Origin: Anaerocolumna aminovalerica
GTDB lineage: Bacteria; Bacillota; Clostridia; Lachnospirales; Lachnospiraceae
Reading direction: 5' to 3'
NCBI RefSeq assembly: GCF_900115365.1
Contig: NZ_FOWD01000046.1
Span: forward strand, 1-32,434
Length of the DNA stretch: 32,434 nucleotides
Shown here one piece after another: positions 8,544 through 23,594 of this stretch. The notes beneath the pieces were generated by a model that was not told the origin of the DNA, ran no database searches, and saw nothing but the letters and a program-made list of their open reading frames with translations. Position 1 is the stretch's first letter; each line of letters opens with the position of its first letter. The position numbers and the translations under genes are program-made.

Positions 8544-9380
8544 TTATAATATTCCTAATAGGGAACAAATAATTGAGAATACAACAACGGATAATAAAAT
8601 TCTGTTGTAGTTTGGCCCTTTTTTCTTTAGATATGTATAGATTACAAAGACTGCTGTTAATGGTAATATTCCTATCACTACAGAGTCTAGTATATCCTGG
8701 ATTACTATCTGAGTACCGCTGGTAAATTGAAATACCAAAGGTGTACTTATTGTGACATAACTAGCTGACAATGCACCCATCATAATCAAACCGATTACAT
8801 TGGCTGTGAAAATGATTTGTTTCATTTTGCCACCATGCAACATAGAGACAACTGATTTCTTACCCAGGGTATATCCATTATGTATCAGATAATAAGAAAT
8901 TAATATTGTAATCAACGGATATAATATTAATGGCATAATACCACCCATAGCAGAACCATTGGATGCAAATGGAAGGAAGATGGATATCAGTATTGGCATT
9001 AATGCCGCCCATATAATAGCATCACCAATTCCTGCCAAAGGGCCCATTAATCCAGTTTTAATACCTGTTATAGCATCATCTGTTATATCTTCCCCTTTTG
9101 CCTTTTGTTCTTCCATTGAAATAGTAATACCTTGAATAACAGCACCAATAATTCCTTCTGTGTTAAAGAATACTAAGTGACGTTTTAATGCTGCACTTAA
9201 TTCTTCATCTGTTTTGTACAATTTTTTCAGAATTGGAGTCATGGAAGCACAGAAAACTAAACTTTGAAGACGCTCATATGAGTTTGATAATTCTGCCCCG
9301 GCATAGTAAATCCACATGGATTTGGTAACATCTTTTTTAGTTATTTTATTCGTACTATTTTCTATTTTATTGTTTCCCAT
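8544..9380 (-). CDS. PTS system mannose/fructose/sorbose family IID component
   Basis: Membrane subunit of a mannose-class PTS permease; with IIC it forms the translocation unit in the cytoplasmic membrane. The 278-residue protein has the IID hallmarks: N-terminal TKSMWIYYAGAELSNSYERLQ (split here: TKKDVTKSMW then YERLQSLVF), the KRHLVFFNTEG segment, GIKTGLMGPLAGIGDAIIW, and several hydrophobic C-terminal segments. It starts 1 base after the IIC stop with AAGAGGTGG as ribosome binding site. The partner lyase and aldolase suggest an amino-sugar acid such as D-glucosaminate as substrate. Confidence 0.93.
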   Translation of the reverse strand: MGNNKIENSTNKITKKDVTKSMWIYYAGAELSNSYERLQSLVFCASMTPILKKLYKTDEELSAALKRHLVFFNTEGIIGAVIQGITISMEEQKAKGEDITDDAITGIKTGLMGPLAGIGDAIIWAALMPILISIFLPFASNGSAMGGIMPLILYPLITILISYYLIHNGYTLGKKSVVSMLHGGKMKQIIFTANVIGLIMMGALSASYVTISTPLVFQFTSGTQIVIQDILDSVVIGILPLTAVFVIYTYLKKKGPNYNRILLSVVVFSIICSLLGIL

Positions 9381-9381
9381 G

Positions 9382-10131
9382 TTATACCACCTCTTCCTTC
9401 ATCTTAAATAAACCTAATAATAATGCAATACAAATTGCAAATATAGCAACTGCCATTGTATTAAGTTCTAAGTACAATACTGCAAAGAATCCAATAATGT
9501 AGAATGGTATAAGCTTTTTCTTACCTATTACTGTAAGAGTAATGGCAAAACCAAGAGCTGGCAAAATTCCTCCCATGATTTCAAATGAATGCATCAGCCA
9601 TTGAGGTATTATATCTATAATCTTTTGCGCTGCTGATACACCAAAATAATCAATAATAAAAACGATTGGGAAACGAATAATAAAGCCTGCTATAGCTGGA
9701 TAAAGGAATGCCGCTCTCAAGATTCCTTTCGTATCCGCCTTTTCTGCATAGTTATCCGCCATATGTATCCAAATTGCATTGGTTGTTCTTCTTAGCTGAT
9801 CTACAAAGACCCCAATCACACCAAAAGGAATTGCCAGTGCAATTGCTACTTCAGGAGACATGTTTGCTAAAACACCAATAGGAATAGCAATACATCCTGC
9901 TAAAGCAGGATCACTTGGAACATTTCCGCCTGGTGTTGATGTAACGCCTAGATAAACAAGTTGCAAACCTGCTCCTATTTTCATGGAAAGTTCCATGTTA
10001 CCTGTAATAAGACCTACAAATACTGACATTGTAACCGGTTGCAGCAGCATACTTGAAAAAGTATATCCCAGTCTTAAGCGGCTGAACCAATAATATACCC
10101 CCATAAATATAGAAATACCTAAAACGCTCAT
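9382..10131 (-). CDS. PTS system mannose/fructose/sorbose family IIC component
   Basis: Integral membrane sugar channel subunit of the mannose-class PTS. It has many hydrophobic segments, the family-typical LQPVTMSVFVGLITGN (about residue 30) and a GAGLQLVYLGVTSTPGGNVPSDPALAG segment seen as GAGLQLVYLG followed by GGNVPSDPALAG. An ATG at 10137 directly abuts the AGAGG ribosome binding site; the second ATG at 10131 is 7 bases from it and is taken as the start, giving 249 residues. It lies between IIB and IID in the operon. Confidence 0.93.
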   Translation of the reverse strand: MSVLGISIFMGVYYWFSRLRLGYTFSSMLLQPVTMSVFVGLITGNMELSMKIGAGLQLVYLGVTSTPGGNVPSDPALAGCIAIPIGVLANMSPEVAIALAIPFGVIGVFVDQLRRTTNAIWIHMADNYAEKADTKGILRAAFLYPAIAGFIIRFPIVFIIDYFGVSAAQKIIDIIPQWLMHSFEIMGGILPALGFAITLTVIGKKKLIPFYIIGFFAVLYLELNTMAVAIFAICIALLLGLFKMKEEVV

Positions 10132-10152
10132 TCTCATACCTCTTTTCTTATT

Positions 10153-10644
10153 TTATTGATTATATTTTTTTATAATACTATCAAAGCTTTGAGGAATATC
10201 TTCAGGAATCGTTTGAAAAATAATATTAACTCCTTGCTCTTTTAAATAAGTAAGTATGCTTACATCTGCGTTATCCAAAGTAATATTTTGAAATACTACC
10301 TTACGATTAGGAGCTCCACCCAAACCACCAATTTGAATGTTGGGTACTTTTATTCCTCCATCATAAACCACTTTCATACTTTCAAGATTAGGTAATAGTA
10401 GTAATACCTTACCATTTCCAAACTGATCCTCTTTCCAATTTTTCACTGCATCTGATTTGCTGTAGCATTCTACTTTCACTCCTGCTGGAGCTGACAGTAG
10501 GTAAATTTCCAGCATAAACTCATCTTTTGCAAGTTCATCGCTTACAACTACTATTTTATTAGCATTTGACTGATTAACCCACTTAGTCATTACCTGGCCG
10601 TGAATCAGTCTGCTATCAATTCTTGTTAATACAATATCAGCCAT
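10153..10644 (-). CDS. PTS system mannose/fructose/sorbose family IIB component
   Basis: Cytosolic phosphocarrier that passes phosphate from IIA to the incoming sugar. The start MADIVLTRIDSRLIHGQ (ATG at 10644) is that of the family; His15 in RLIHGQ is the phosphorylation site. A longer frame starting at 10665 would add seven residues unlike the family. The ATG overlaps the IIA stop by 8 bases (ATGGCTGA junction), so the two are probably translationally coupled. The 163-residue length is normal. Confidence 0.94.
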   Translation of the reverse strand: MADIVLTRIDSRLIHGQVMTKWVNQSNANKIVVVSDELAKDEFMLEIYLLSAPAGVKVECYSKSDAVKNWKEDQFGNGKVLLLLPNLESMKVVYDGGIKVPNIQIGGLGGAPNRKVVFQNITLDNADVSILTYLKEQGVNIIFQTIPEDIPQSFDSIIKKYNQ

Positions 10645-11062
10645 TATTGGTAGCCTTCCCTTCAAGTGATTTCATTATTTCGCTTACTACATCTTTTACA
10701 GATTGTTGTCCCATTTCTAACACTGAATTAAAGTCAATCTCTCCTGTAAATTTAATTTGTGAACAAGCTTCAATTAACAGTGGAGCATTTAAACCTGAGA
10801 TTACCTTAATATTTTTTTCCTTTCCAACTTTTGCTCCAACATTAGTTGTTGTACCTCCAAATAAATCAGTTAAAATGATTGAATTTGATGGAACTTTTTC
10901 CACATAATTTTTAACCTCTAAGTAGTATTCTGAAAAAGTAACTTCGGGTGTTAATGGTATCTCATGAACAAAATCAACTGCTCCGATAATCATTTTAGTA
11001 CTTTCTACTAGCCCCATTCCCCACCCGCCATGAGTAAGTAGTAACACTTGTGGTTTCTCCAT
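10637..11062 (-). CDS. PTS system mannose/fructose/sorbose family IIA component
   Basis: Cytosolic phosphocarrier that accepts phosphate from HPr. MEKPQVLLLTHGGWG carries the active histidine at position 11, and TDLFGGTTTN (Asp-Leu-Phe-Gly-Gly) is the second family signature. The ATG at 11062 follows GGAGGGG closely and fits the family start; an upstream in-frame start at 11116 would add 18 poorly matching residues. First gene of the operon; promoter and operator lie at 11131-11159. Confidence 0.94.
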   Translation of the reverse strand: MEKPQVLLLTHGGWGMGLVESTKMIIGAVDFVHEIPLTPEVTFSEYYLEVKNYVEKVPSNSIILTDLFGGTTTNVGAKVGKEKNIKVISGLNAPLLIEACSQIKFTGEIDFNSVLEMGQQSVKDVVSEIMKSLEGKATNNG

Positions 11063-11130
11063 ACAGCCCCTCCATTTCTTGTGTTTTTTTGTAATGTAAA
11101 TGTCCGGAACATTCATATTATCATATAATT

Positions 11131-11159
11131 ATAGTAGCACACTACATTATTTATGTCAA
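11131..11159 (-). promoter_or_regulatory. PTS-dga operon promoter with internal inverted repeat
   Basis: Minus-strand TTGACA (11154-11159) and TACTAT (11131-11136) are 17 bases apart. The inverted repeat GTAG-CACA-CTAC (11134-11145) overlaps the -10 and the spacer, where a bound repressor would block polymerase. The nearby RpiR-type gene is the obvious candidate regulator (inference). Confidence 0.7.
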
Positions 11160-11282
11160 TATTGAATATTTATTTCTTTAATACTAATTATTTTTTAGTA
11201 AATTTCACTTATCTGTATTTTTTTTATAACTCAGAAAGAAATATTTATAAAAAACATGGTTCTTTATCTAGTTTTATGGTAT

Positions 11283-11302
11283 TCTACTAATTATGTAGTA
11301 GA
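11283..11302 (+). promoter_or_regulatory. Palindrome upstream of the RpiR gene
   Basis: TCTACT (11283-11288) and AGTAGA (11297-11302) form a 6-bp inverted repeat with an 8-base spacer, just before the AAGGGAG ribosome binding site of the regulator. It shares CTAC/GTAG half-sites with the operator at 11134-11145, though in the opposite order, and may be an autoregulatory site. Confidence 0.4.
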
Positions 11303-11321
11303 TTACAAGAAGGGAGAAAAA

Positions 11322-12152
11322 ATGAATAAGGATAACGGTTTATTTTCAATCATGTCAAGAATAGATTGCATGTCTAATCAATTTACAAAAACAGATTGGA
11401 AAATTTTTAAATTTATAAAGAATAATACGAATCAGTTTCTTTCATTAAATGCGCAAGAACTTGGTAAAGTAATAGGTACTTCAGATGCCAGTGTTATACG
11501 ATTTTCTCAAAAAATAGGTTTCTCTGGGTTAAATGAAATGCGTTATTCCTTGCAGAGTGAAATGGTTAAAAATACTTCTGTAAGTCATCATACAGATTAC
11601 TCAACATTAATGCGTGAAACCCAGCTGGTAATAGAAAATATTTATCATACAACAAGCCAATCTTTAGTCAGCAGGTTACGATTAAAAGTTAAAAGTTCGA
11701 AAAGGTGTTTCCTCGTTGCACTAGATGATAAGAACATTGCAGATATCATTTCAGAAAAGTTTATGGCAATCGGTATCAATATCATCCCATTAACCAATAT
11801 AAATGCCTTAAAAATGTACGGTTCCCATTCAGAAAGCGATGATTTGTTTATCGTAATTTCTTATACTGGGAATAGTAAGGCATTATCTTCTGTACTAGAG
11901 GATATAACTGATCATGGTAGCTATGTTGCCTTAATATCCAATTATGAAAAATCGTTGTGTGCCGATAATAGTGATATTGTTATGTTAATTCCTAAGACAA
12001 ATTTATTAATAAGTTCTGCGGTTATTTCTAAAGAACTGATTATTCTTACATTATTTGATTTAATATTTCAAAATTTTATTACAGAAGATACGGATTATTT
12101 TGATATGCTTCAAAAAACTGTTTCTTATATCAATGATGGTGATGATATATAA
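11322..12152 (+). CDS. RpiR/MurR family transcriptional regulator (HTH plus SIS)
   Basis: Predicted DNA-binding regulator of sugar-phosphate metabolism. The 276-residue protein has an N-terminal RpiR helix-turn-helix (about 1-80; LGKVIGTSDASVIRFSQKIGF is the recognition region, seen in two parts around residues 50-70) and a C-terminal SIS domain (about 120-260, with FIVISYTGNSKAL) that would bind a phosphosugar. The ATG at 11322 follows AAGGGAG by about 5 bases; an upstream frame start at 11256 lacks a ribosome binding site. It is divergent from the PTS-dga operon, so it probably senses the phosphorylated substrate or KDGP. The Salmonella dga locus uses a sigma-54 activator instead, so this is a different wiring. 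Confidence 0.88.
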   Translation: MNKDNGLFSIMSRIDCMSNQFTKTDWKIFKFIKNNTNQFLSLNAQELGKVIGTSDASVIRFSQKIGFSGLNEMRYSLQSEMVKNTSVSHHTDYSTLMRETQLVIENIYHTTSQSLVSRLRLKVKSSKRCFLVALDDKNIADIISEKFMAIGINIIPLTNINALKMYGSHSESDDLFIVISYTGNSKALSSVLEDITDHGSYVALISNYEKSLCADNSDIVMLIPKTNLLISSAVISKELIILTLFDLIFQNFITEDTDYFDMLQKTVSYINDGDDI

Positions 12153-12244
12153 CCAGATGACAATTATAATACGATATCGGATACCGTGGTTTGCAAAAGT
12201 AAAATACAAAAAATTAGTTAGTTAGCTAAATATCAGTACTATAA

Positions 12245-12271
12245 AAAAGTAGGACTGAGAGTCCTACTTTT
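12245..12271 (+). terminator. Terminator of the RpiR gene
   Basis: Perfect 12-bp stem (12245-12256 with 12260-12271), GAG loop, ending in TTTT-C-TT. The A-rich left arm could also let it work on the minus strand. Confidence 0.85.
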
Positions 12272-12427
12272 CTTATATATTCCAGTCTAAATTTAAATAT
12301 TCTCTATAAAACATTGCTATAATAGGTATAATGTTTCATTATCACCTGCTCCAACTCCTGCAAAATTGAGCCGCACATGAATAATCTTGATATTGCCATC
12401 AGTCTTTTTCTGTTTTCGTGCATAAAA
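12272..12427. other. Intergenic, no supported gene
   Basis: Between the two facing terminators. The minus strand has a 39-codon frame (12304-12423, beginning M-H-E-N-R-K-R) with a protein-like composition but no ribosome binding site; a second frame with M-F-Y-R-E-Y-L-N-L-D-W continues just beyond its stop. It could be a decayed small gene, but the evidence is thin. Confidence 0.3.
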
Positions 12428-12474
12428 AATAGGCTACGTCTGTAGGTTTTTAAATGACCTAAAACTTGCCTATT
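12424..12474 (-). terminator. Terminator behind the first GNAT gene
   Basis: On the minus strand ATAGGC (68-73 side, 12468-12473) pairs with GCCTAT (12429-12434), with an inner TAGGT/ACCTA helix, followed by six Ts (plus-strand As 12424-12429). It lies just after the stop of the GNAT gene at 12508. Confidence 0.75.
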
Positions 12475-12507
12475 GATTTTATATTAAGTCTTATGAACAT
12501 TTACTCA

Positions 12508-12978
12508 TTATGTAGTATAAAGCATAATATAAAAAACATGTTTAGATATAGCATGATGAACGCTCATGCTATATTTGAACCCAATTCTCTCATATACTTT
12601 AATAGCTCTTTGATTAAATGAAGCGACAGTAAGCCTATAATTACTTGCGTTAAACTTCTGCTTTACAAAAGAAATACAATCCGTTAAAAATTTACTACCA
12701 AGCCCATTTCCGCATAGCGCTGGGTTTAATCCAAGTCCAATGTCTAAAGCCGTTTCGTCTATATATATCTCTTTCTCTAAAGTTGGTATCTGTGCAGATT
12801 TTCCAATGCAGATGAAACCTATAATTTTATTTTCATTATCGAAATCCACAAAATATTCACCATTCATAAGCTCGGTTATTATTTCACTACTACCATCAAA
12901 GCTATAACAAGAATATATATCTGGATATGTCCATTGTGATATTTCAAATGCAGATTTTTTTGTCATTAAAGTAAACAA
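12508..12978 (-). CDS. GNAT family N-acetyltransferase
   Basis: Predicted acetyl-CoA-dependent N-acetyltransferase; substrate unknown. The 156-residue protein has the GNAT acetyl-CoA loop as CGNGLGSKFL (about residue 100; the usual first Arg/Gln is Cys here) after the DIGLGLNP strand, and the C-terminal NQRAIKVYERIGFK motif typical of RimI-like enzymes. The start is TTG at 12978, 11 bases after AAGGAG; an internal ATG at residue 5 is possible. It has its own ribosome binding site and terminator, and a 97-base gap separates it from the next GNAT gene upstream, so it may be the last gene of the c-di-GMP operon or independent. Confidence 0.85.
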   Translation of the reverse strand: MFTLMTKKSAFEISQWTYPDIYSCYSFDGSSEIITELMNGEYFVDFDNENKIIGFICIGKSAQIPTLEKEIYIDETALDIGLGLNPALCGNGLGSKFLTDCISFVKQKFNASNYRLTVASFNQRAIKVYERIGFKYSMSVHHAISKHVFYIMLYTT

Positions 12979-13075
12979 GTCTTTTCACACTCCTTCGCGT
13001 TATTTATTTTACCAGGTACTTTAGATTAGTAAATATATAACAAATTCCAATAACTGGTTACATTCTGACAGTTTA

Positions 13076-13666
13076 CTATTTCTTTAATGCCACTTTGTCA
13101 TAATCATCTTTTAACATCCCATATATATGTGTATCGATATACATGTCATTGTATCGGAAAGCTTCGCGTTTAACCCCTTCCAATATAAAACCATTCTTGC
13201 GGTAGACTCTTTCTGCCCGGGGATTAAAGCTGTAAACCTCCAGCTCAACCTTATGAAGACCTAATACTTCAAATCCATAGCGCAAAAATATTTCAGTTGC
13301 TTCCGTTCCTAAACCCTTACCACGACCTGCTTCTCCAATTAATATACGAAAGTTTACATTACAAGTAGCTTCGTTATATTCATTAAAAACAACCTCACCT
13401 ACTAATGCTTCCTTTTCTTTTTCTATAATCGCCAGATCCAAACGGTCTGTTTGATGATTGCGGCTTAGATACCATTCTTTTATTTTCTCCATTTCTTCTA
13501 TGCTAAAAGCCCCACCGGCTTCCTCGTCATTAACAACTGATCCGGTTAAATGGTTGACCTCTGGCTCAGCTAAAATGGGCAGCATCTTTTCCCAATCCTC
13601 TATATCAAATGGCCTTAGTATCACCTTTTTACCTTCTAAAACAGGTTTCGTTTTAAAATCTATCAT
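13076..13666 (-). CDS. GNAT family N-acetyltransferase, RimJ/RimL-like
   Basis: Predicted N-acetyltransferase of the RimJ/RimL subgroup, which acetylate protein N-termini, antibiotics or other amines; substrate unknown. It shows the group N-terminus (GKKVILRPFDIEDWEKML), the acetyl-CoA loop GEAGRGKGLGTEA (near residue 115) and FNPRAERVYRKNGF near the C-terminus. The ATG at 13666 (196 residues) follows GAAAGGA at 11 bases and fits the family start; an ATG at 13705 would add 13 atypical residues and has a ribosome binding site 17 bases away. It begins close behind the diguanylate cyclase stop (13708), so it is probably co-transcribed with the c-di-GMP riboswitch operon. Confidence 0.87.
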   Translation of the reverse strand: MIDFKTKPVLEGKKVILRPFDIEDWEKMLPILAEPEVNHLTGSVVNDEEAGGAFSIEEMEKIKEWYLSRNHQTDRLDLAIIEKEKEALVGEVVFNEYNEATCNVNFRILIGEAGRGKGLGTEATEIFLRYGFEVLGLHKVELEVYSFNPRAERVYRKNGFILEGVKREAFRYNDMYIDTHIYGMLKDDYDKVALKK

Positions 13667-13707
13667 TACTTTTAATATCCTTTCATTGTCACAGTACTCT
13701 TCCATAG

Positions 13708-14631
13708 TTAATAATAAATATCCTCGTCATTTCTCTTGGCAATATACATAGCTTTATCGGCTTTCACAATTAGCTTGTCAATATTATCACCGTCATTAGG
13801 ATAAATACTTATTCCTATACTAAATGAAAGTTTTATTTCTTTATCTTCCATATAAACAACATTTTCATTCAAATTATTAATTTTAGAAGCTACAATTTTA
13901 TAATCAGATATATCTTTCATATTAGGCAGGATAACTACAAATTCATCTCCACCATATCTTACCACAATATCAGTTTCTCTTGTAGCTTTTTTTAGAATAT
14001 TAGCCGCTTTGATAATTATTTTATCTCCAACCTGGTGCCCATAGGTGTCATTTATACTTTTAAACTTATCTATATCAATAAACATGATACCTAATAAGCT
14101 ATTATTTCGCTTAGCCTTTTGAATATATTTTTCAGCAAGGATATAAAATAGAGTTCTGTTTGCAACACCTGTCAATTGATCATAATAAGCCAGATCTTCA
14201 ATCTCTTTTTCTTTCTCTTTTAACTCTTTATTTACATGGTACAATTCTTTAATATATTTTTTAAGCTGTTTGATCTGAGCCATCTGCCCGGTAACATTGT
14301 GAAATTCCAGAAGGATAGATGTCTTGTGTTCGTCCTGAATTCTGCTGATTTTTATGTTAAACCTTTCCTCCGTATCCAACAGATCCTGATGCATAGCAGC
14401 AGAAAAAAACATAGCATACCCATCATTTAATATGTTTTTTACTACGTTTTTGAAATAGTTCTTATTCAGGCTTGGTAACACTGTATATAAATTACTTCCT
14501 ATTGCATTTGAACCTTTAATATTAGTAATGGTTTCCATATAACTATTCCAAAAAAAAACATCGAAATTCTCGTTTACTATGATAATACCTTCATTTACAT
14601 TATTTAATACTTCGTAACAATAGTTAATCAT
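13708..14631 (-). CDS. PAS domain diguanylate cyclase (GGDEF)
   Basis: Makes cyclic di-GMP from two GTP. The 307-residue protein has an N-terminal PAS-like sensor (about 5-115, beginning NEGIIIVNENFDVFFWN), a charged coiled coil (about 117-147) and a full GGDEF domain (about 148-305) with the DQLTGVANR start, metal site FIDIDKFKSIND and intact GGDEF at 227-231. RETD at 218-221, five residues before GGDEF, is the RxxD inhibitory I-site, so the enzyme is predicted active and subject to product inhibition. No membrane segment: cytosolic. It overlaps cheC by 8 bases and lies in an operon preceded by a c-di-GMP-I riboswitch, so the product may control its own gene. No EAL or HD-GYP partner is in the window. 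Confidence 0.94.
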   Translation of the reverse strand: MINYCYEVLNNVNEGIIIVNENFDVFFWNSYMETITNIKGSNAIGSNLYTVLPSLNKNYFKNVVKNILNDGYAMFFSAAMHQDLLDTEERFNIKISRIQDEHKTSILLEFHNVTGQMAQIKQLKKYIKELYHVNKELKEKEKEIEDLAYYDQLTGVANRTLFYILAEKYIQKAKRNNSLLGIMFIDIDKFKSINDTYGHQVGDKIIIKAANILKKATRETDIVVRYGGDEFVVILPNMKDISDYKIVASKINNLNENVVYMEDKEIKLSFSIGISIYPNDGDNIDKLIVKADKAMYIAKRNDEDIYY

Positions 14632-15256
14632 AAATATCAGCCTCGATCAGATCAATTTTTCTCATTATCTCATTTAAGGATTGCAGTGCCAAATCAACTA
14701 TGATAGTACCTTCAATTTCTGTACTATCTATAATAAAAGTTATGTATAAGACTAAAATATGCTGATATTCTTTTTCATCAATATCTTTCCTGAAATTAAT
14801 ATGGTTGTATATTTTAACTTCCGGTAAAGAATACTGAAGTTTGATATTAAGTAAATTACCGGTCTCTCCCAAAATACAATTTAAAATAATGTTTCCGATT
14901 TCTTTAATTACGTCAAAATCTATATCAGTAAAATTTAAATCGTCCTCTTCATGTACATCTTCATTTAGACATAGGTGTATAAAAGCTTTCATTTTCTCAG
15001 CCGGGAAAATCAGATTAGCTTTTCCAGTTAAATTTTCTTTAAAAGAAATAGTGGAGACCATTAATGCTCCAGTGAATTTAATTGGTAAATATTCTGTTAA
15101 TTCTATATTATTTGTTGTTCTATCTAAAATTGTTACATCCGGAATTTTTAATAATATTTTTTTACCGGTAATCTCTGAAAGCAGATCAGCAGCTTTACCT
15201 ACACTTATGTTAAATACCTCTTTTAATATATCATATTTGAAACTGGACCTATCCAT
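14624..15256 (-). CDS. cheC: CheC-family CheY-P phosphatase
   Basis: CheC proteins dephosphorylate CheY-P. The 210-residue protein has both copies of the CheC active-site pattern D-x3-E-x2-N-x22-P: Asp9/Glu13/Asn16/Pro39 and Asp115/Glu119/Asn122/Pro145, so it should be active, unlike single-site CheX relatives. It starts with ATG 8 bases after GGGAG and overlaps both neighbours by 8 bases (receiver upstream, diguanylate cyclase downstream), so the three are translationally coupled. No other chemotaxis gene lies nearby, so it probably resets the adjacent receiver protein. The name cheC reflects family; a role in chemotaxis is not implied. Confidence 0.87.
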   Translation of the reverse strand: MDRSSFKYDILKEVFNISVGKAADLLSEITGKKILLKIPDVTILDRTTNNIELTEYLPIKFTGALMVSTISFKENLTGKANLIFPAEKMKAFIHLCLNEDVHEEDDLNFTDIDFDVIKEIGNIILNCILGETGNLLNIKLQYSLPEVKIYNHINFRKDIDEKEYQHILVLYITFIIDSTEIEGTIIVDLALQSLNEIMRKIDLIEADIYD

Positions 15257-15623
15257 GGATCTTCTCCCTCATTAAATTGCATATTAACTGAGCTTTTTCA
15301 TCCTGTAACGGTTTATTTAGGAAAGACAATATATTATAGGCCTCTACTTCTTCGCGAATATTTTTTTGAACATCAGCAGAAACCACAATTATTTCTGCAA
15401 ACTTATCATGTGCTTTTATGCGACGTATCAGTTCCTGTCCGCTTAATTTTGGCATGAGCAAATCAGTAATAACAAAATCCGGTTTTAATTTTTCATATAA
15501 TTCAATTCCTTCTTCACCATCATTTGCAAAGCTAAGTTCAACATCGCCCATGTACTTTTTAATTAAATTAGCAGCAATTTTTTGGGAAAATACAGAATCA
15601 TCAACGATTAACACTTTTGTCAT
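15249..15623 (-). CDS. Single-domain CheY-like response regulator
   Basis: A 124-residue stand-alone receiver domain with no output domain. Catalytic residues are all present: Asp8/Asp9 (IVDDS), phospho-acceptor Asp54 (ITDLLMPK), Ser82 in VVSAD (the usual Thr/Ser switch) and Lys104 in NKPL. It would work by binding a partner when phosphorylated. The ATG follows AAGGAG by 8 bases. First gene of the operon under the c-di-GMP riboswitch and next to CheC, its probable phosphatase; the kinase is not in the window. A role in linking phosphorylation to c-di-GMP output is inferred from the context. Confidence 0.93.
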   Translation of the reverse strand: MTKVLIVDDSVFSQKIAANLIKKYMGDVELSFANDGEEGIELYEKLKPDFVITDLLMPKLSGQELIRRIKAHDKFAEIIVVSADVQKNIREEVEAYNILSFLNKPLQDEKAQLICNLMREKIHG

Positions 15624-15681
15624 TCATAACACTCCTTCTAACTAATACACTTTATTTTCATTTTAATAATAAAAAGTATTT

Positions 15682-15731
15682 AAAAAATAAAAAAACAACT
15701 AAGCAAAATCATACCGATTCTACCCTAGTTG
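15682..15731 (-). terminator. Riboswitch terminator
   Basis: Minus-strand CAACTAGG (15724-15731) pairs with CTTAGTTG (15696-15703), followed by T7-A-T6 (plus-strand 15682-15695). The left arm lies inside the 3' part of the c-di-GMP aptamer, so aptamer folding and this terminator exclude each other. Confidence 0.8.
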
Positions 15732-15817
15732 CAACTGAACTACCATAGGAATTACACATTATTTTTCCGACAGGCTCTAGCTTTGCGTCCCTATCTTTCA
15801 ATAGGTTTGCCAAAATC
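15716..15817 (-). promoter_or_regulatory. Cyclic di-GMP-I (GEMM-I) riboswitch
   Basis: The minus strand shows the GEMM-I consensus in order: P1 arm GATTTT (15812-15817), GGCAAACC, stem with GAAA tetraloop (CCTATT-GAAA-GATAGG), the near-invariant GGGACGCAAAGC, a P3 helix with AGCTA/TAGTT and GCAA/TTGC pairing, and the closing P1 arm AGAATC (15716-15721). This is the c-di-GMP-I class, well known in clostridia. It precedes the receiver-CheC-GGDEF operon. The terminator at 15682-15731 takes its left arm from the aptamer 3' part, so ligand binding should prevent termination (an ON switch; inference). The transcription start was not located; a TTTACA-17-TATATA pair at 15818-15846 is placed too close. 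Confidence 0.93.
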
Positions 15818-16235
15818 TATATATAACATCTTAATCATTCTGTAAACTGTTAAAAATAATATTATGATCCATGTTCTATAAAATATATAAATATTAAAAT
15901 TAAACACTAATTATTAAATATCTAAATACATTTATTAATAATAATACATATTCTATTAATTATGAACTAATTTTCAACAATTTTCAATCCATATCTTGCT
16001 TTTTTTACAACTTTTTTTTGCTTATCATAATTTGGAAATAACTTTGCTGAGAAAGCTTACAATTTTGATTTAACAGAAAGGCTAACATTTGTACAATTTT
16101 CTGGATTATAAGTTGCATTTTTTTGTAATAAATGCTAATATTTACTATGACCCTATAAATAATAATAGATTGCAAGGCTATTATTCATAGTCATCCATAT
16201 CTTCTTGCAAATACTGATGTATAAGGAGAATAACA
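15818..16235. other. AT-rich divergent intergenic region
   Basis: Holds the promoter of the riboswitch operon (not resolved) and that of the YibE/F gene. No gene is visible. A long imperfect hairpin occupies 16144-16191 just before the YibE/F ribosome binding site. Confidence 0.5.
16144..16191 (+). other. Leader hairpin upstream of the YibE/F gene
   Basis: ACTATGA (16144-16150) plus ATAATAG (16162-16168) together pair with the uninterrupted arm 16178-16191, giving 14 bp interrupted by an 11-base one-sided bulge, and a 9-base loop. No T-run follows. Might be a leader structure or operator. Confidence 0.4.
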
Positions 16236-17411
16236 TTGGATAAGAGAAAAACACTGATTATTAAGGTAGCAGCAGGAGTAATATTTATAGCATTTTTTTC
16301 AATACTTCTATTTCTTGCTAACCAAGATAATCCGGAAAATTACAAAACCGGTACTAATTCACCTGTCAAATATGTGAAAGCAAAAGTAATTGAGGTTTTA
16401 CAGGATAATACACAAACCGATGAGAATTCAGAAGGACTAAAGCGTGGACACCAATTGCTTGAAATCATGATTTTAAGCGGTGAACATAAAGGTGAAACAC
16501 AAATCATAGATAACTATCTGGGACTGCTGTATAACGTTTATGCAAAGGAAGGAACCAGGATTATTGCCAGATTAGATACTCATGAGGGAGAATTTATTGC
16601 ATCCATTTATAATTATGACCGCTCCTTTTTAATTTATGGTATAATTATACTCTTTTCTGCTCTTTTATGTATAATTGGCGGGAAGAAAGGGTTTATGGCC
16701 TTGCTAGGATTAGTTTTTACTATTCTTTGCGTAATGAATATTCTAGTACCCATGATTTCAAAAGGAGTTCCGGTGCTTCCATTAACAATACTAATCGTTA
16801 TAGTAACCACCATAGTATGTCTGGTATTACTGGACGGAATCAATCCCAAGACTTTCTCTGCTATCACGGGTACCATATTAGGGGTTCTGGTGGCGGGGAT
16901 TCTGGCGTACATAATAGGTAAATTAGCCCATATTAGTGGATTGAATATGGAAGAAGCTGAGTCTATGCTGTTGGTAGCTACCGATAACGGTTTGAAGATC
17001 AGGAACTTACTGGTTGCCGGAATACTTATATCTGCTCTTGGTGCAGTTATGGATACCGGAATGAGTATATCTTCTGCAATTTATGAATTGCATACAGTGA
17101 ACCCAACAATGAAAGCTTTGGCATTGTTTCAATCGGGAATGAATATTGGTAAAGATGCAATGGGTACAATGGCAAATACATTAATATTAGCATTTGCAGG
17201 TTCCTCCTTAAATCTTGTACTTATGATATTTGCATATGGAATTCCATTTTCACAAATCATTAATACCGATTTAATAGCTATTGAAATAATAAGAGCTATA
17301 ACAGCAAGTATAGGCATTATTTTATCTGTGCCAATTGTGGCATTTATCGGTTCACGGGTTATGACAAGAAAAGATAAGGAACATATCGTTAAGTTAAAAA
17401 AGAATCTATGA
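16236..17411 (+). CDS. YibE/F family membrane protein
   Basis: Belongs to the YibE/F-like family of membrane proteins of unknown biochemical function. The 391-residue protein has an N-terminal membrane anchor (about 8-27), an extracytoplasmic beta-rich domain (about 30-125, with VKAKVIEVLQDN and a GEHKGETQ segment) and about seven hydrophobic segments in the rest, including the PLTILIVIVTTIVCLVLLDG region (about 187-206) and the GAVMDTGMSISSAIYEL motif that is strongly conserved in the family. The start is TTG at 16236, 8 bases after AAGGAG. It stands alone behind an AT-rich region, with a U-tract-free hairpin 10 bases after its stop. Some Firmicutes carry two such genes; only one is here. 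Confidence 0.88.
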   Translation: MDKRKTLIIKVAAGVIFIAFFSILLFLANQDNPENYKTGTNSPVKYVKAKVIEVLQDNTQTDENSEGLKRGHQLLEIMILSGEHKGETQIIDNYLGLLYNVYAKEGTRIIARLDTHEGEFIASIYNYDRSFLIYGIIILFSALLCIIGGKKGFMALLGLVFTILCVMNILVPMISKGVPVLPLTILIVIVTTIVCLVLLDGINPKTFSAITGTILGVLVAGILAYIIGKLAHISGLNMEEAESMLLVATDNGLKIRNLLVAGILISALGAVMDTGMSISSAIYELHTVNPTMKALALFQSGMNIGKDAMGTMANTLILAFAGSSLNLVLMIFAYGIPFSQIINTDLIAIEIIRAITASIGIILSVPIVAFIGSRVMTRKDKEHIVKLKKNL

Positions 17412-17420
17412 TAAAATATG

Positions 17421-17452
17421 GGTTGTTGTAAAACATTCATTTTGCAACAACC
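17421..17452 (+). terminator. 13-bp hairpin after YibE/F, no U-tract
   Basis: Arms 17421-17433 and 17440-17452 pair fully (one wobble) around loop CATTCA; GGTTGTTG...CAACAACC. No T-run follows on the plus strand. Similar core to the hairpins at 6541 and 8502. Confidence 0.65.
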
Positions 17453-17585
17453 TTACTAAACTTCTTTACCCTTTCCCGATGTATTTTATATCTCAAATAA
17501 AGCTTCATATATTTTAATATATACCCTCATATCTTTAAGTTGAATTTGCCAATATATAATAATATTATTTTTTTAAAAATAGTGC

Positions 17586-17614
17586 TTGAAAAGTAGGACA
17601 GCATTTGTTATAAT
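17586..17614 (+). promoter_or_regulatory. Sigma-A promoter of the tRNA-Gln gene
   Basis: TTGAAA (17586-17591) and TATAAT (17609-17614) are 17 bases apart, about 43 bases before the tRNA. Confidence 0.88.
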
Positions 17615-17656
17615 ATCATTCGTGGCTATGAAGTGGCTGTATATAGAATTAAATAA

Positions 17657-17728
17657 TGGGCTATCGCCAAACGGTAAGGCACTGGACTCTGACTCCAGCA
17701 TTTCAAGGTTCGAATCCTTGTAGCCCAG
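17657..17728 (+). tRNA. tRNA-Gln (anticodon CUG)
   Basis: A 72-base cloverleaf: acceptor TGGGCTA/TAGCCCA with discriminator G, D-loop with AACGGTAAGGC, anticodon stem CTGGA/TCCAG around loop CTCTGAC giving anticodon CUG, and T-arm CAAGG-TTCGAAT-CCTTG. CCA is not encoded. The U1 start and weak first pair are usual for tRNA-Gln. Single-gene unit with its own promoter and terminator. It reads CAG, the minor-use Gln codon in AT-rich genomes. Confidence 0.97.
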
Positions 17729-17732
17729 TTTG

Positions 17733-17759
17733 AACCCTTGATTTTCAAGGGTTTTTTTA
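17733..17759 (+). terminator. Terminator of the tRNA-Gln gene
   Basis: AACCCTTGA (17733-17741), TT-type loop, TCAAGGGTT, then seven Ts; 4 bases after the tRNA. Confidence 0.93.
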
Positions 17760-17899
17760 TATTTGAATTATCATCTCCACTTTATTCAGGAATTTAATGT
17801 CTCACTAATAATATTTAGCTTATGTTAAATTTTTCTCTGAAATTTTTTTATTTTTAGCTTAGTTCTAATTAAATAAAAAACTAAATATTTGAATTTCAA

Positions 17900-17940
17900 A
17901 ACAATAGATGTTTGACTTTTAAAACAATATTTGTTAGTAT
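17900..17940 (+). promoter_or_regulatory. Candidate regulated promoter of the AEC carrier gene
   Basis: TTGACT (17912-17917) and TAGTAT (17935-17940) are 17 bases apart. Two copies of AACA-N5-TGTT (17900-17912 and 17923-17935), 23 bp apart, overlap the -35 and the spacer up to the -10. A second possible -10 (TATAAT near 17983, with TTACCA 18 bases before) could be an alternative start. Confidence 0.5.
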
Positions 17941-18009
17941 CTATTAGATTTTATGATTTTTACCAAACTGTGAATAAGTAGCATATAATGTGTCAGGAGT
18001 AATATAATT

Positions 18010-19115: not shown

Positions 19116-20981
19116 CTATTCTAACATAAAGTTACGTACACCAACGTTTTTCAAAGTTACGATTGGCTTACATTTCTCTGCGTTTTTATAATGAGATGCC
19201 GGACATATCTCTAATATATAGCATCCATCATATGGAACCTCGAACTCAAAACATCCGCAATTTGCAATAGTATCACAGTAGAGTAACGTTTTAGTATTAT
19301 CAAATAATTCATATAATTTAATTTCCCATTCATGACATTTACAGCAATTGCACCCCCAGATACATCCATATATAATTCCTGCTTCAATCAGACATTCCTC
19401 ACATGGGGGACATGGCGGACATGGTGGGCAGGGACGAGGTGGCGGGCATGGCGGGCATGGTGGTGGTTCCGGGCATGGCATTTGAATAGGGAATGGAATA
19501 AGTTCTATTTCCCTCGTTGCCTCCGGACATTCCGGGCATGGCGGACATGGACGTGGTTTCGGACATTCCGGACATGGTGGGCAAGGGCGAGGTGCCGGAC
19601 ACTCAGGACATGGCAGCGGTTCCGGGCATGGACGGGGTGGAGGGCATGCTGGGCATGGTGGTGGTGCCGGACATGGGCGCGGTGCCGGACACTCAGGACA
19701 TGGCGGCGGTTCCGGACATGGGCGCGGTGCCGGACACTCAGGACATGGTGGTGGCTCCGGACATGGACGGGGTGCCGGACATGGGGGTGGTTCCGGACAT
19801 GGGCGTGGTGCCGGACATTCCGGACATGGTGGCGGTGTTGGCTGAGGTGCCGGTGGCGGCGTTGGCTGTGGCGCCGGTGGCGGTGTAGGACGAGGTGGCG
19901 GTGGCGGTGTTGGCTGTGGCGCCGGTGGCGGTGTAGGACGAGGTGGCGGTGTTGGTGCTAGTCCTCTGCATACAACTCTTCCTCTAAATGGTAATGCGTG
20001 GAACTCAAACCCGCTTCCTGCGCTTACTGCAAAAGAGTTAAATGCTACGTTACCACTTACTTGGCCTCCTGTAGGGTGTGCATGAAACATAGCCTGAGGT
20101 GCTAATATACTTCCCCATATTGCTGCCGGTACTTCCATATGAATATCCGTTGCATCTTCAAATACATACAGAGTACGATCAGCCCGTCTTTCTTCTCCGA
20201 TTAATCCATACTGAAGGTGAGCGTGATTACCGGTTCTTATTTTTACAATTACTGTGCTGCCTTCTGGTACTTCTGCCCGTATTCCTTTGTTTAGTACTCC
20301 ATTTGGCCTTGCGTCAATTAAAAATACGTTTTGTTGCGGATTGGTTCCCCGAAGAATCCATTCATGAATATTGTCTACAACAGTGCCATTTTCGGGCAGA
20401 TTCATTATACAATTCTTCATATTCATGAGACTTTCTCTTGCAGCTTGGAAGAATGCCTGCAGATTTGCTCCTACTCTTCTTGCCGGAATATAACGGGGAA
20501 CATCATAGCTGGAGATTAAATAATGATTTCCTTTATCTGTTGGTGCCCAATAAGGGCTTCCCCCTGGTGCTTCATATAAGAATCTTAATTCTTCAAGCTG
20601 ATTAGGTGTACCATCTTTTCCAATTAAATAAGTACTTCCTTTAGCAACATTGAAACTTCCGCCTCCCATAACATGGCCGCGTACTACTAAAGGGCCTCTT
20701 ATTGCTGTATTTCCACCAACTAAGAATCTTACCCCATTCGCTGTATATTCGGTAGGCCTTCCTTCTCTTCCAAAACCAACAGTTAATCCTCTTGGACTGG
20801 AGAAATTTCTTCCTACTGCCATATTACCAGTAACATCTACAATATTATTAGCATCCTGTAATATAAAAGCATTATATTGAGAAGCCGCCCCAAATGGCTG
20901 CCCCTCTATATCAAACCAGCGAATATTATCGTAAGGTAAACCAACATTTGTTTGATTATTTATTCTATTAACATTATCCAT
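19116..20981 (-). CDS. Choice-of-anchor-A domain protein with Pro/Cys-rich repeats
   Basis: A 621-residue protein. Residues about 30-340 form a choice-of-anchor-A / adhesin-type domain: QYNAFILQDANN and VTGNMAVGRNF at the start, and the hallmark block IWGSILAPQA, VSGNVAFNSFAV and FEFHALPFRGRV near 285-340. Residues about 342-526 are a Pro-rich repeat: first Cys-free PPPAPQPT units, then many CPECPAPRPCPEPPP-type units. The last 95 residues are Cys-rich (GCIWGCNCCKCHEW, then a beta-sandwich-like domain with CFEFEVPYDGCYILEI). No signal peptide, membrane segment or LPXTG signal is visible, unlike most relatives. ATG follows AGGAG by 5 bases. Monocistronic. A spore-coat or other disulphide-linked assembly made inside the cell is conceivable, but function is unknown. 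Confidence 0.82.
   Translation of the reverse strand: MDNVNRINNQTNVGLPYDNIRWFDIEGQPFGAASQYNAFILQDANNIVDVTGNMAVGRNFSSPRGLTVGFGREGRPTEYTANGVRFLVGGNTAIRGPLVVRGHVMGGGSFNVAKGSTYLIGKDGTPNQLEELRFLYEAPGGSPYWAPTDKGNHYLISSYDVPRYIPARRVGANLQAFFQAARESLMNMKNCIMNLPENGTVVDNIHEWILRGTNPQQNVFLIDARPNGVLNKGIRAEVPEGSTVIVKIRTGNHAHLQYGLIGEERRADRTLYVFEDATDIHMEVPAAIWGSILAPQAMFHAHPTGGQVSGNVAFNSFAVSAGSGFEFHALPFRGRVVCRGLAPTPPPRPTPPPAPQPTPPPPPRPTPPPAPQPTPPPAPQPTPPPCPECPAPRPCPEPPPCPAPRPCPEPPPCPECPAPRPCPEPPPCPECPAPRPCPAPPPCPACPPPRPCPEPLPCPECPAPRPCPPCPECPKPRPCPPCPECPEATREIELIPFPIQMPCPEPPPCPPCPPPRPCPPCPPCPPCEECLIEAGIIYGCIWGCNCCKCHEWEIKLYELFDNTKTLLYCDTIANCGCFEFEVPYDGCYILEICPASHYKNAEKCKPIVTLKNVGVRNFMLE
19415..19955 (-). repeat. 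Pro/Cys coding repeat region
   Basis: Degenerate tandem repeats inside the gene at 19116-20981: units encoding PPPAPQPT/PPPRPT (about 19825-19955), then units encoding CPECPAPRPCPEPPP (about 19400-19825) in several near-identical copies. It is much GC-richer than the surroundings. The opposite strand has long open frames that are artefacts of the repeat. Slippage or recombination here could change the copy number. Confidence 0.8.
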
Positions 20982-21117: not shown

Positions 21118-21134
21118 GTTTTTAATTAATAAGT

Positions 21135-21385
21135 GAAACCTTTGAGAAAGAAGAGTAAGCTTTAATACAACATTACAGAGAGTCGCAATTGGTGGAATGC
21201 GATATGGAGTTTTAGCTGAATGGACTTTTGAGGGCAACCCGAACTAATAGTAGGCGTTGACGGAAACCATAACCGTTATTAGTATGGCATATATGTTTGT
21301 ATATGATAAAGTGGACTTATGTCAAATTGAGTGGTACCGCGGATTTTATTCGTCTCAAGTATATTTTATACTTGGGATTTTTTTT
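21135..21385 (+). promoter_or_regulatory. T-box leader, tryptophan-specific (UGG specifier)
   Basis: Full T-box riboswitch: Stem I start AGAAAGAAGAGTAAGC (about 21143-21158), AGAGAGTCGC and GGTGGAATGCG arm, specifier loop CTGAA-TGG-ACTTTTGAG with TGG at 21221-21223 (Trp codon), and the T-box proper AGTGGTACCGCGG (21330-21342). Uncharged tRNA-Trp would pair with the specifier and T-box, stabilise the antiterminator and allow transcription. The terminator follows at 21353-21385. The downstream genes are a tryptophan-type ABC importer, in line with the specifier. Confidence 0.95.
21353..21385 (+). terminator. T-box terminator
   Basis: TCTCAAGTATA (21353-21363) pairs with TATACTTGGGA (21367-21377, one wobble), loop TTT, then a run of Ts to 21385. 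Confidence 0.92.
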
Positions 21386-21442: not shown

Positions 21443-21579
21443 TTATTAAGTATTAATCCGGAAGATGAGAGTAAAACTTAATAATGGAGCAAATGGATAG
21501 TTGAAAAATATCTTTTTCAACCGGCAATTTGTGCTGAAGCATAAGATTGCTGTCGTTATTTATAGGCGCTCAAAGCGCC
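21443..21579 (+). other. Three further hairpins before trpX
   Basis: Between the T-box terminator and the trpX start: TTATTAAGT/ACTTAATAA (21443-21451 with 21476-21484), GTTGAAAAA/TTTTTCAAC (21500-21508 with 21513-21521), and GGCGCT-CAA-AGCGCC (21565-21579). All are perfect; none is followed by a T-run. The last ends 7 bases before the ribosome binding site and could affect initiation. Confidence 0.6.
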
Positions 21580-21594
21580 AGAATCGAGGATAAT

Positions 21595-22587
21595 ATGAAA
21601 AAAAATATTTCTTTAATAATTGTATTAGTATTAGCACTTAGTTTGTTTACAGGATGCGGGAAAAAAGAGGATGGAAAAATTACAATTGGAATCGCCCAGT
21701 TTGCGGAACACGGTTCCTTGGATAATTGCCGCGAAGGTTTTTTGGCAGGATTGGCAGAAGAAGGTTACGTAGAGAATGAAAATTTAAATGTAATATATGA
21801 AAATGCACAGGCAGATGGTGGTACTGCTGCCCAAATCTCCAGCAACCTTGTGGCAAAAAAAGCAGCCCTAATCGCAGCCATTGCTACACCTATGGCACAA
21901 AGTGCTTATGGGGCTGCAAAAAAGAAAAACATTCCTGTTATATATACAGCAGTGACAGACCCAATTTTAGCTGAGTTAGCAAAGGAAGACGGCACTCCTG
22001 CCGGCCAGGTTACCGGAACTAGTGATAAACTTCCTGTTGAACAACAACTGAAAATGATTCGTTCCATTTTACCGGAAGCTAAGAAAATTGGCATTCTTTA
22101 TAGCACCAGCGAAGTAAACTCCATATCGGCCATTAAAGAATATAAAGAAAAAGCTGCTGATTATGGTTTTGAAATCATAGAAAGCGGAATATCTGCCCCT
22201 GCTGATATTCCACTTGCAACTGATAATTTATTAGGTAAAGTAGATTGTCTCACTAATTTAACAGATAACACTGTTGTAAGTTCTCTTCCAACCATATTAA
22301 ATAAAGCAGGTAAGAAAGGTATCCCCGTATTCGGAAGCGAAATAGAGCAAGTAAAAATCGGATGCCTTGCTGCTATGGGACTTAACTATTATGAACTGGG
22401 TGTTAAAACCGGTAAAATGGCAGCCAAAGTGTTAAAAGGTGATAGTAAGGCAAGTGAAATGAATTTTGAAGTATTTAAAGAAGCTTCTTTTTATGGAAAT
22501 ACCTTTGTAGCAGAAAACCTTGGAATAACTTTACCAAAGGATTTGGTAAGTTCTGCTGCTGAAATGTTCAGCTCTATAGAAGAATAA
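21595..22587 (+). CDS. trpX: Tryptophan ABC transporter substrate-binding lipoprotein
   Basis: Extracellular lipid-anchored binding protein that delivers substrate to TrpYZ. The 330-residue protein begins with a lipoprotein signal (MKKN, hydrophobic core, LFTGC lipobox with Cys21) and continues as an ABC_sub_bind (DUF534) family domain: IGIAQFAEHGSLD, GFLAGLAEEGY, TAVTDPILAEL and VFGSEIEQVKIGCLAAMGL segments. The ATG at 21595 follows GAGGA by 4 bases; an upstream frame from 21547 lacks a ribosome binding site and would spoil the signal peptide. Controlled by the Trp T-box, which fits tryptophan as substrate. Sequence family alone would not specify the ligand. Confidence 0.92.
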   Translation: MKKNISLIIVLVLALSLFTGCGKKEDGKITIGIAQFAEHGSLDNCREGFLAGLAEEGYVENENLNVIYENAQADGGTAAQISSNLVAKKAALIAAIATPMAQSAYGAAKKKNIPVIYTAVTDPILAELAKEDGTPAGQVTGTSDKLPVEQQLKMIRSILPEAKKIGILYSTSEVNSISAIKEYKEKAADYGFEIIESGISAPADIPLATDNLLGKVDCLTNLTDNTVVSSLPTILNKAGKKGIPVFGSEIEQVKIGCLAAMGLNYYELGVKTGKMAAKVLKGDSKASEMNFEVFKEASFYGNTFVAENLGITLPKDLVSSAAEMFSSIEE

Positions 22588-22694: not shown

Positions 22695-23594
22695 ATGATA
22701 GAATTTATATTTGACTTAATTCTAGGTGTGTTAGAAGAAGGCTTTGCTTATGCAATCATGGCTCTTGGAGTATACATTACCTATAAAATATTGGATTTTC
22801 CGGATCTGTCGGTAGACGGGACTTTCCCGTTAGGAGGTGTAGTATCCGTGGTGTTGATTATTGCAGGTGTAAGCCCTGTTTTAACCTTGCTTATCTCCTT
22901 CTTAGCTGGTGCCCTGGCAGGAACTTTTACCGGGCTCATTCATGTAAAATTAAGAGTAAGAGATTTATTTTCCGGTATTATCATGATGACTGCGCTATAC
23001 TCCATTAATCTAAGAATTGCAGGCTCACCTAACGTACCTATCTTTTCAAAAGAAACCATCTTTGAAAATAGTTTTTTAGAAAAATTTATTTCTGATAAAT
23101 TTAAACCTTATATTACAGTTACTATTTTGCTTATTATCCTACTGATTATGAAATTAATCTTAGATTTTTACTTAAATACCAAATCAGGTTATTTACTACG
23201 AGCTGTTGGTGATAATTCAACCCTAGTAACCTCTCTGGCCATTGATAAAGGTAAAGTAAAAATTATTGGTCTTGCATTGGCAAATGGTTTAGTTGCCTTA
23301 GCTGGTGCTATTTATTGTCAGAAATCCGGATACTTTGAAATTTCCATGGGAACTGGTACAATGACCATTGGACTTGCAAGTGTAATCATAGGAACCAACC
23401 TGTTTAGAAAGGCTTCCTTTATAAAATCAACATCAGCAGTCATTATCGGTTCCTTACTATATAAGCTTTGTGTTTCCATTGCTATTTCCTTTGGACTGGA
23501 GAATTCCGATTTAAGACTTATTACCGCTATTCTATTCTTAGGTATCCTGGTAGTAAGTAACGACCGAAAAAGGAAGGTGAAATCAAATGCTTGA
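22695..23594 (+). CDS. trpY: Tryptophan ABC transporter permease
   Basis: Membrane permease of the importer. The 299-residue protein has about eight or nine hydrophobic segments and the branched-chain-like ABC permease pattern (YKILDFPDLSVDGTFPLGG near residue 30, LRAVGDNSTLVTSLAIDKGK near 172). The ATG follows GAGG by about 5 bases, 107 bases after trpX, with two hairpins between. It overlaps trpZ by 8 bases. Substrate assigned by context (T-box, DUF534 partner). Confidence 0.9.
   Translation: MIEFIFDLILGVLEEGFAYAIMALGVYITYKILDFPDLSVDGTFPLGGVVSVVLIIAGVSPVLTLLISFLAGALAGTFTGLIHVKLRVRDLFSGIIMMTALYSINLRIAGSPNVPIFSKETIFENSFLEKFISDKFKPYITVTILLIILLIMKLILDFYLNTKSGYLLRAVGDNSTLVTSLAIDKGKVKIIGLALANGLVALAGAIYCQKSGYFEISMGTGTMTIGLASVIIGTNLFRKASFIKSTSAVIIGSLLYKLCVSIAISFGLENSDLRLITAILFLGILVVSNDRKRKVKSNA

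Follow-up and report, generated by a model that had tools for sequence, protein, structure and literature searches.

Two unrelated c-di-GMP riboswitch classes with a predicted ON design at a CheY-CheC-diguanylate cyclase operon

The DNA analyzed here (the window, 32,434 nucleotides of an Anaerocolumna aminovalerica contig, NZ_FOWD01000046.1) carries a c-di-GMP riboswitch candidate ahead of an operon that includes a predicted diguanylate cyclase gene. The question is whether such an operon could be switched on by the very signal that its cyclase is predicted to make. Feedback on c-di-GMP is usually treated at the protein level, through I-sites, trigger phosphodiesterases and transcription factors. 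Because GEMM RNAs are already recorded upstream of certain diguanylate cyclase and phosphodiesterase genes in the available part of a review (PMC12564702), a riboswitch ahead of a cyclase is not new in itself.

The Rfam scan of the window gave a match to RF01051 (c-di-GMP-I, GEMM-I) at 15821-15727 on the minus strand, over the full model (1-87), scoring 62.0 bits where 35 is the gathering threshold (E 5e-10). The preliminary description had named a textbook GEMM-I aptamer and proposed the RF01051 search, and this full-length match bears it out. In the Vc2 aptamer, G20, A47 and C92 contact c-di-GMP (PMC11218506, seen in part). We transferred these residues to the window through the Rfam alignment, and they correspond to G15811, A15784 and C15731. 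A GAAA tetraloop lies at 15796-15799 (minus). The window has in common with RF01051 riboswitches the full-length match, the ligand-contact bases, the GNRA loop and the terminator platform. A class II aptamer was ruled out in the window, since the Rfam scan showed no match to RF01786 (c-di-GMP-II) at the gathering threshold.

We infer that c-di-GMP is the ligand. In the GEMM-I fold, a G at position 20 confers a preference for c-di-GMP, and the equivalent in the window is G15811, as in c-di-GMP binders. The cyclase of the operon retains N194 and D203, the guanine contacts of canonical GGDEF domains, and homologous loci carry class II c-di-GMP aptamers at the equivalent place. It is therefore very improbable that the window RNA senses 3',3'-cGAMP, even though GEMM-Ib members with the same fold prefer that ligand; the A20G variant is named as c-di-GMP selective (PMC6456294, in the part available). 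A pairing of a GEMM-Ib cGAMP aptamer with a Hypr cyclase is likewise disfavored by G15811, N194 and D203.

An intrinsic terminator hairpin of 16 pairs (about -15 kcal/mol) was found at 15695..15732 on the minus strand, followed by the U tract T7-A-T6 (15682..15695, minus). Read from 15732 to 15695, the hairpin is GCAACTAGG-G-TAGAATC / GGTAT / GATTTTG-CTTAGTTGT, with one G bulged; its energy was -15.1 kcal/mol alone and -15.6 kcal/mol with flanks. An equally stable hairpin at this site appeared in 0 of 300 dinucleotide shuffles, in which the last 12 bases (the T tail) were held fixed, and the best shuffle reached -9.9. A simple consensus terminator scan of the minus strand from 9000 to 18000 listed none, probably because the stem is bulged and its unbroken parts are poor in G-C pairs. 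The left arm (15732-15716) shares 6 nt with the 3' end of the aptamer match, and C15731, the C92 equivalent, is among them. It had previously been placed at 15724-15731, as a piece of the aptamer 3' part; the overlap is real, but the true start is 15732, one base further. The arm opens with G15732, and C15731 forms the second pair. As far as the sequence goes, we are sure that the aptamer is present and overlapped by the terminator. Since the left arm contains the ligand-contact C15731, the full terminator and the bound aptamer should be mutually exclusive.

The first gene behind the terminator (15249..15623, minus) encodes a CheY-like single-domain receiver (PF00072, 3.8e-20), with an RBS-like AGAAGGAG located 8 nt 5' of the ATG. 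Its phosphoacceptor, assigned by position, is D54, which is invariant in 12 of 12 aligned rows. The second gene (14624..15256, minus) encodes a CheC/CheX-type CheY-P phosphatase, which exceeds the Pfam cut-offs for CheC (PF04509, 30.8 bits against 22) and for CheX (PF13690, 29.6 bits against 27). The NCBIfam CheC equivalog matched at 1e-12 and 48.4 bits, well under its cut-off of 250; therefore, we regard the protein as a divergent CheC member. By eye, the motif D-x3-E-x2-N-x22-P occurs in it twice (residues 9-39 and 115-145), and we take this pattern to be the active-site consensus of CheC-type phosphatases; CheC/FliY phosphatases share it. The third gene (13708..14631, minus) encodes a predicted PAS-GGDEF diguanylate cyclase (PF00990, 4.3e-48, 163.5 bits against a cut-off of 23.8; PAS, 2.9e-7). 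The GGDEF active-site motif (residues 227-231; 13939..13953, minus) and the inhibitory I-site RETD (residues 218-221; 13969..13980, minus), an RxxD five residues before GGDEF, are both present, and the earlier statement of an intact GGDEF domain with an I-site stands. The protein is thus predicted to be enzymatically active, and product inhibition through the I-site is plausible.

Receiver and phosphatase genes overlap by 8 nt, as do phosphatase and cyclase genes, and the operon genes are presumed to be co-transcribed. Although the operon was initially thought to end with the GGDEF gene, a GNAT acetyltransferase ORF (13076..13705, minus) starts 2 nt past the GGDEF stop, so the operon probably continues and the GNAT gene is likely to be co-transcribed with it. 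This gene is absent from the equivalent position in a second Anaerocolumna locus (L006), and thus looks like a local addition. The promoter search returned 57 sites against 50.8 expected (sd 7.2), and none is named. Receiver-cyclases of the PleD type also combine a receiver and a cyclase in one regulatory unit; in the window, however, the receiver, the phosphatase and the PAS-GGDEF protein are three separate products of one operon. The three may be physically linked.

We consider it reasonably probable that a class I ON riboswitch controls the receiver/phosphatase/PAS-GGDEF operon, and that the cyclase product feeds back on it within the limit set by the I-site. In the ligand-free RNA, C15731 and the next bases would join the terminator hairpin, and transcription would stop ahead of the first gene. 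When c-di-GMP is bound, the ligand would hold C15731, and its neighbors would be kept close to the aptamer junction. The terminator stem could then not close at its lower end, beside the U tract, and the polymerase would read into the operon. The cyclase would raise c-di-GMP further, which amounts to positive feedback at the RNA level, until the I-site finally limits its activity. Feedback bounded in this way is plausible. It also requires that the window cyclase feeds the pool sensed by the RNA; the genome encodes 11 GGDEF domains, among which that of the window cyclase scores best. ON is the likely direction and the best-supported reading of the window switch, because C15731 and its neighbors should be mutually exclusive between the ligand-bound aptamer and the terminator. 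It stays a prediction, since the C. difficile precedent is ON for class II but OFF for the class I switches with demonstrated function. The sequence-level evidence covers the aptamer, the terminator, their overlap, the gene order, the motifs and the strand-sharing in homologs of two classes.

Folding of the window leader with the aptamer constrained, as the preliminary description had suggested, gave a mixed picture. When P2 and P3 were forced, the terminator was still intact (-30.1 kcal/mol in total). With P2/P3 forced, blocking C15731 cost 4.3 kcal/mol and a 14-pair hairpin persisted, whereas blocking 15732-15727 cost 6.9 kcal/mol and left a residual hairpin separated from the U tract. The P1 closing stem is weak in both class I leaders (computed for L006, by eye for the window), and that of the window is not preserved in L006. 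For this reason the ligand may hold only C15731 and one or two neighbors.

The heptamer GATTTTG at the 5' edge of the aptamer (15811..15817, minus) is identical to 15710-15704 in the right arm of the terminator, and both copies are able to pair with TAGAATC (15722-15716). In nascent folds ending at 15716, 15711 and 15706, the 5' copy pairs with TAGAATC and forms a closing helix around the aptamer. According to these models, an antiterminating closing helix is possible. The GATTTTG closing helix was absent from the nascent folds of L006, whose minimum-energy folds ending at 396-404 lose the aptamer P3. A conserved antiterminator of this kind was dropped, as it has no counterpart in L006.

These folds also bear on the opposite direction, in which ligand would promote termination and exert negative feedback on the cyclase. 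Between 15716 and 15706 the nascent folds pair part of the left arm upstream, which makes an antiterminator on paper; however, this pairing encloses the aptamer helix P2 and does not break it. An OFF switch is also the precedent in C. difficile, where the class I switches with demonstrated function are OFF and class II switches are uniformly ON (PMC6200980, in the sections available). In its discussion, all but one class I switch are OFF in the first transcript analysis. We took the directions from PMC6200980, whose abstract and results are concordant, over a legend in PMC3649979, which reverses them (flgB 'positively' and type II genes 'negatively' regulated); both sources were available in part. 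In contrast to the C. difficile class I switches, which tested OFF, the window is predicted to be ON, its left arm containing the C92 equivalent.

Class I leaders were compared in 34 Lachnospiraceae loci (four from the window's genome and 30 others, from a larger match set), among which L023, L025, L028 and L034 are near-duplicates. In nine of the 34, the best left arm begins no later than the end of the model: L004 (the window), L010, L012, L016, L021, L022, L024, L029 and L035, the terminators of L010 and L016 being long imperfect stems. The overlapping ON layout is thus neither rare nor confined to the window. In the remaining loci, 22 terminators start past the model end and in three none was found, so that 25 of the 34 have the best terminator clear of the aptamer or lack one, as would suit an OFF switch. 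An OFF window switch is nevertheless unlikely, because its left arm includes the ligand-contact C15731, which should make the bound aptamer and the full terminator exclusive, and because homologous class II leaders show an ON design. The ON reading proposes a loop that is the opposite of what is seen in C. difficile at raised c-di-GMP, where cyclase genes as a group show no trend and GGDEF-EAL phosphodiesterase genes tend upward, which is buffering (PMC6200980, from the same sections).

Relatives of the operon were collected by a contig scan with the CheC protein, which gave 11 loci, and by whole-genome profile searches at E <= 1e-30 in overlapping genome sets. The CheC profile matched 9 of 391 genomes at the level of the class, 4 of 344 of the order and 2 of 15 of the genus; it also matched 19 of 206 genomes in the family of G562 and 2 of 6 in that of G461. 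The cyclase matched at E <= 1e-60 in 2 of 61 genomes, namely the window's own and G013. After duplicate removal, 31 distinct CheC loci remained, and all were scanned with Rfam: two carry class I, 11 carry class II, and 18 have neither over threshold. Since these 18 loci lack a c-di-GMP aptamer over threshold, RNA control is dispensable for the module. The two class I loci, the window and L006 (Anaerocolumna sp.; on the same contig as L037), are both in the window's genus. The class II loci are L038, L039, L041, L042, L044, L046, L056, L061, L065, L067 and L076.

The order CheY-CheC-GGDEF, with all three proteins near full length, was found in 26 of the 31 loci, L077 with a cyclase split over two frames being counted. 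In the other five, L054 has a different order, L073 shows no CheY match, L045 leaves the contig, and L056 and L069 are broken or cut. L056 is thus one class II locus of the 11 in which the operon is not intact; there (1501-1940) the class II aptamer and CheY remain, but CheC and the cyclase are disrupted or truncated. The GGDEF motif was found in 28 of the 31 loci and is preceded by RxxD in 26 of these 28, being without it in L055 and L072. The cyclase scored in L054 is an upstream gene in a different order.

The CheC protein of L006 is 85% identical to that of the window. Its leader retains GCAACTAGGG with a terminator on GCAACTAGGG, and the closing pair is changed from G-U to G-C. Two class I leaders are too few for covariation.

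In the class II loci, terminator hairpins were searched in two ways. When 330-nt leaders were searched without a positional constraint, the hairpin picked out overlapped the aptamer end in 8 of the 10 class II leaders; in the other two, L042 and L046, a different stem was preferred (L076 was not in that set). The confined search, which allowed hairpin starts only between 16 nt ahead of the aptamer end and 2 nt past it, gave a T-rich-tailed hairpin in 11 of 11 leaders with overlaps of 9-13 nt, those of L042 and L046 being weaker (-8.8 and -9.6). As the confined search favors overlap by design, we put weight on covariation.

In alignment A4, made with MAFFT without structure input, columns 81-85, which form the shared strand, are paired with the 5' strand of the aptamer (P1) in 92.7% of cells, and both sides are changed in three of the five pairs. 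For the terminator (columns 81-92), the paired fraction is 94.7%, and seven of 12 pairs are changed on both sides. Slid versions reached pairing maxima of 72.7% (P1) and 42.6% (terminator). For P1, 0 of 500 shuffles reached the pairing or covariation score, while the count of two-sided pairs was reached by 27 of 500 and that of further pair types by 185 of 500, so that part of the P1 controls is weak; for the terminator, any measure was reached by at most 1 of 500. At columns 83-85, some rows show concerted change on all three strands, as at column 83, where U-A-U becomes G-C-G in L041 and L044. L041, L044 and L065 each lose P1 pairing at column 84 or 85, and basal terminator pairs are missing in L042 (one) and L046 (two). 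Because L038, L039 and L061 are near copies, the independent events are fewer than the cells. The covariation shows that class II leaders share a strand between aptamer and terminator, the same predicted ON design as in the window. That the class II operons are ON is supported by the uniformly ON class II switches of C. difficile (PMC6200980, in its available sections).

Class II remnants noted by eye in L047 and L051 were rejected, as a model trained on 10 class II leaders without their terminators did not find them there. The sole match of this model at the right place was in L040, and it was weak (14.3 bits, E 0.16). At this C. algifaecis locus (L040:3490-3670), a terminator is kept ahead of the homologous operon, possibly as part of a decayed riboswitch. 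L040, L047 and L051 are labelled 'rem' in the operon tree and counted as having no aptamer over threshold. In L047, from a Herbinix MAG, no c-di-GMP aptamer over threshold precedes the operon. A class II aptamer overlapped by a terminator is located behind the operon (3051-3153); in its vicinity are a periplasmic-binding-protein ORF (3110-4279) and, at 4301, a HAMP/CHASE3 protein.

Retained terminators of the L040 kind, with a weak class II-like leader match, would also suit a further reading of the window, in which the aptamer binds c-di-GMP but barely alters transcription, as a fixed attenuator or a decaying switch. It is suggested by the shortness of the overlap and the stability of the terminator, which is much greater than that of any closing helix, and it has a precedent in the Bacillus class I switch Bc1, which showed no in vivo response to c-di-GMP (PMC11218506, seen in part). 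Against it stand the retention of aptamer, overlap and terminator in both operon-bearing genomes of the genus (2 of 15) and the covariation of the shared strand in the class II group; we judge it rather improbable, somewhat more so than the OFF switch. The ON switch proposed in the preliminary description, with termination blocked by ligand, is supported in part: the C92 equivalent in the terminator, the overlap kept in L006 and the strand-sharing of class II leaders speak for it, but the OFF class I switches of C. difficile and the weak closing helix do not.

A tree of 26 concatenated operons places the two class I rows in one clade (100/100). This clade is nested in two larger groups, of 13 rows (85/88) and of 11 rows (82/72), which include class II rows, and class II also occurs in the other group, of nine rows (92/95). 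On the simplest reading of the tree, class II would be ancestral and class I would have arisen afterwards in the lineage of the window. Support for the inner branches is moderate, the root depends on two outgroup rows, one of which (L055) sits on a very long branch, and change counts on this tree cannot separate gain from loss. Separate gains of the two classes are possible. The distribution of the operon, with 2 of 15 genomes carrying it in the genus and 4 of 344 in the order, would fit horizontal transfer.

At the level of sequence, two unrelated aptamers stand at a homologous operon with the same predicted wiring, and this is the most interesting part of our results. RF01786 riboswitches have the same ligand, a homologous operon and strand-sharing with a terminator in 11 of the 31 loci, whereas their fold is unrelated. 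The broader claim is that one CheY-CheC-cyclase module has come under two unrelated c-di-GMP riboswitch folds, class I having probably replaced class II in the lineage of the window, with an identical ON wiring in each case, and that this is evidence for selection of positive feedback. We advance it tentatively, at somewhat less than even confidence. The new part is the exchange of riboswitch classes at one kind of operon. We found no description of the three-gene operon under either c-di-GMP riboswitch class among the open-licence papers listed, with most subscription journals outside them, and the available sections of PMC6200980 do not mention CheC.

If the broader claim is true, it would provide RNA-level evidence for selection of positive feedback on c-di-GMP synthesis, and the operon would act as a latch in the change from motile to sessile life, with I-site inhibition as its limit. 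An operon whose transcription is predicted to depend on what its own cyclase makes, and in which one or the other of two non-homologous sensors for this product is found according to species, offers a clean test of whether positive feedback through RNA renders c-di-GMP signalling switch-like. Testing is feasible, because class II versions sit in worked-with acetogens, C. ljungdahlii and C. ragsdalei, which we take to be in use as production organisms; in C. ljungdahlii the leader is L038:3484-3602.

Other Lachnospiraceae loci show a related arrangement. In L013 and L031, as in the window, a class I aptamer is followed by a GGDEF ORF within the visible 1.5 kb; they differ from the window in the proteins encoded and in their best terminators, which begin 18 and 5 nt past the aptamer model. 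Proteins encoded 3' of the cyclase operon are type IV pilin-like in L041 (5701-6252, C. tetanomorphum) and a prepilin peptidase A24 in L044 (5576-6382, C. liquoris).

The window's genome contains three further class I aptamers and four CheW-domain matches. One aptamer (L001/L079) lies ahead of a methyl-accepting chemotaxis protein. Another (L002) has an RBS directly behind it and then a transglutaminase-domain protein. The third (G000:C27:17128-17039; L003/L078, about 8129-8040, minus) lies with a terminator about 70 nt past the end of a GGDEF gene. No ORF of at least 70 aa follows it on the same strand for about 2.5 kb; it either is without an obvious target or acts at the 3' end. A class II aptamer (58.7 bits) is also present in this genome, at G000:C42:13717-13800 (L081 1218-1301, plus); the next same-strand ORF (L081:1495-2154, 219 aa) had no Pfam match.

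Two other features of the window were observed. On the minus strand, near the c-di-GMP operon, 19116-20981 encodes a protein of 621 aa whose putative adhesive domain is of the ice-binding-like type (PF20597); this gene has no c-di-GMP aptamer of its own at the gathering threshold in the Rfam scan of the window. On the plus strand, a T-box leader (21133-21360, 129 bits) precedes an ABC transporter with a substrate-binding protein (21547-22587) and a permease (22695-23594).
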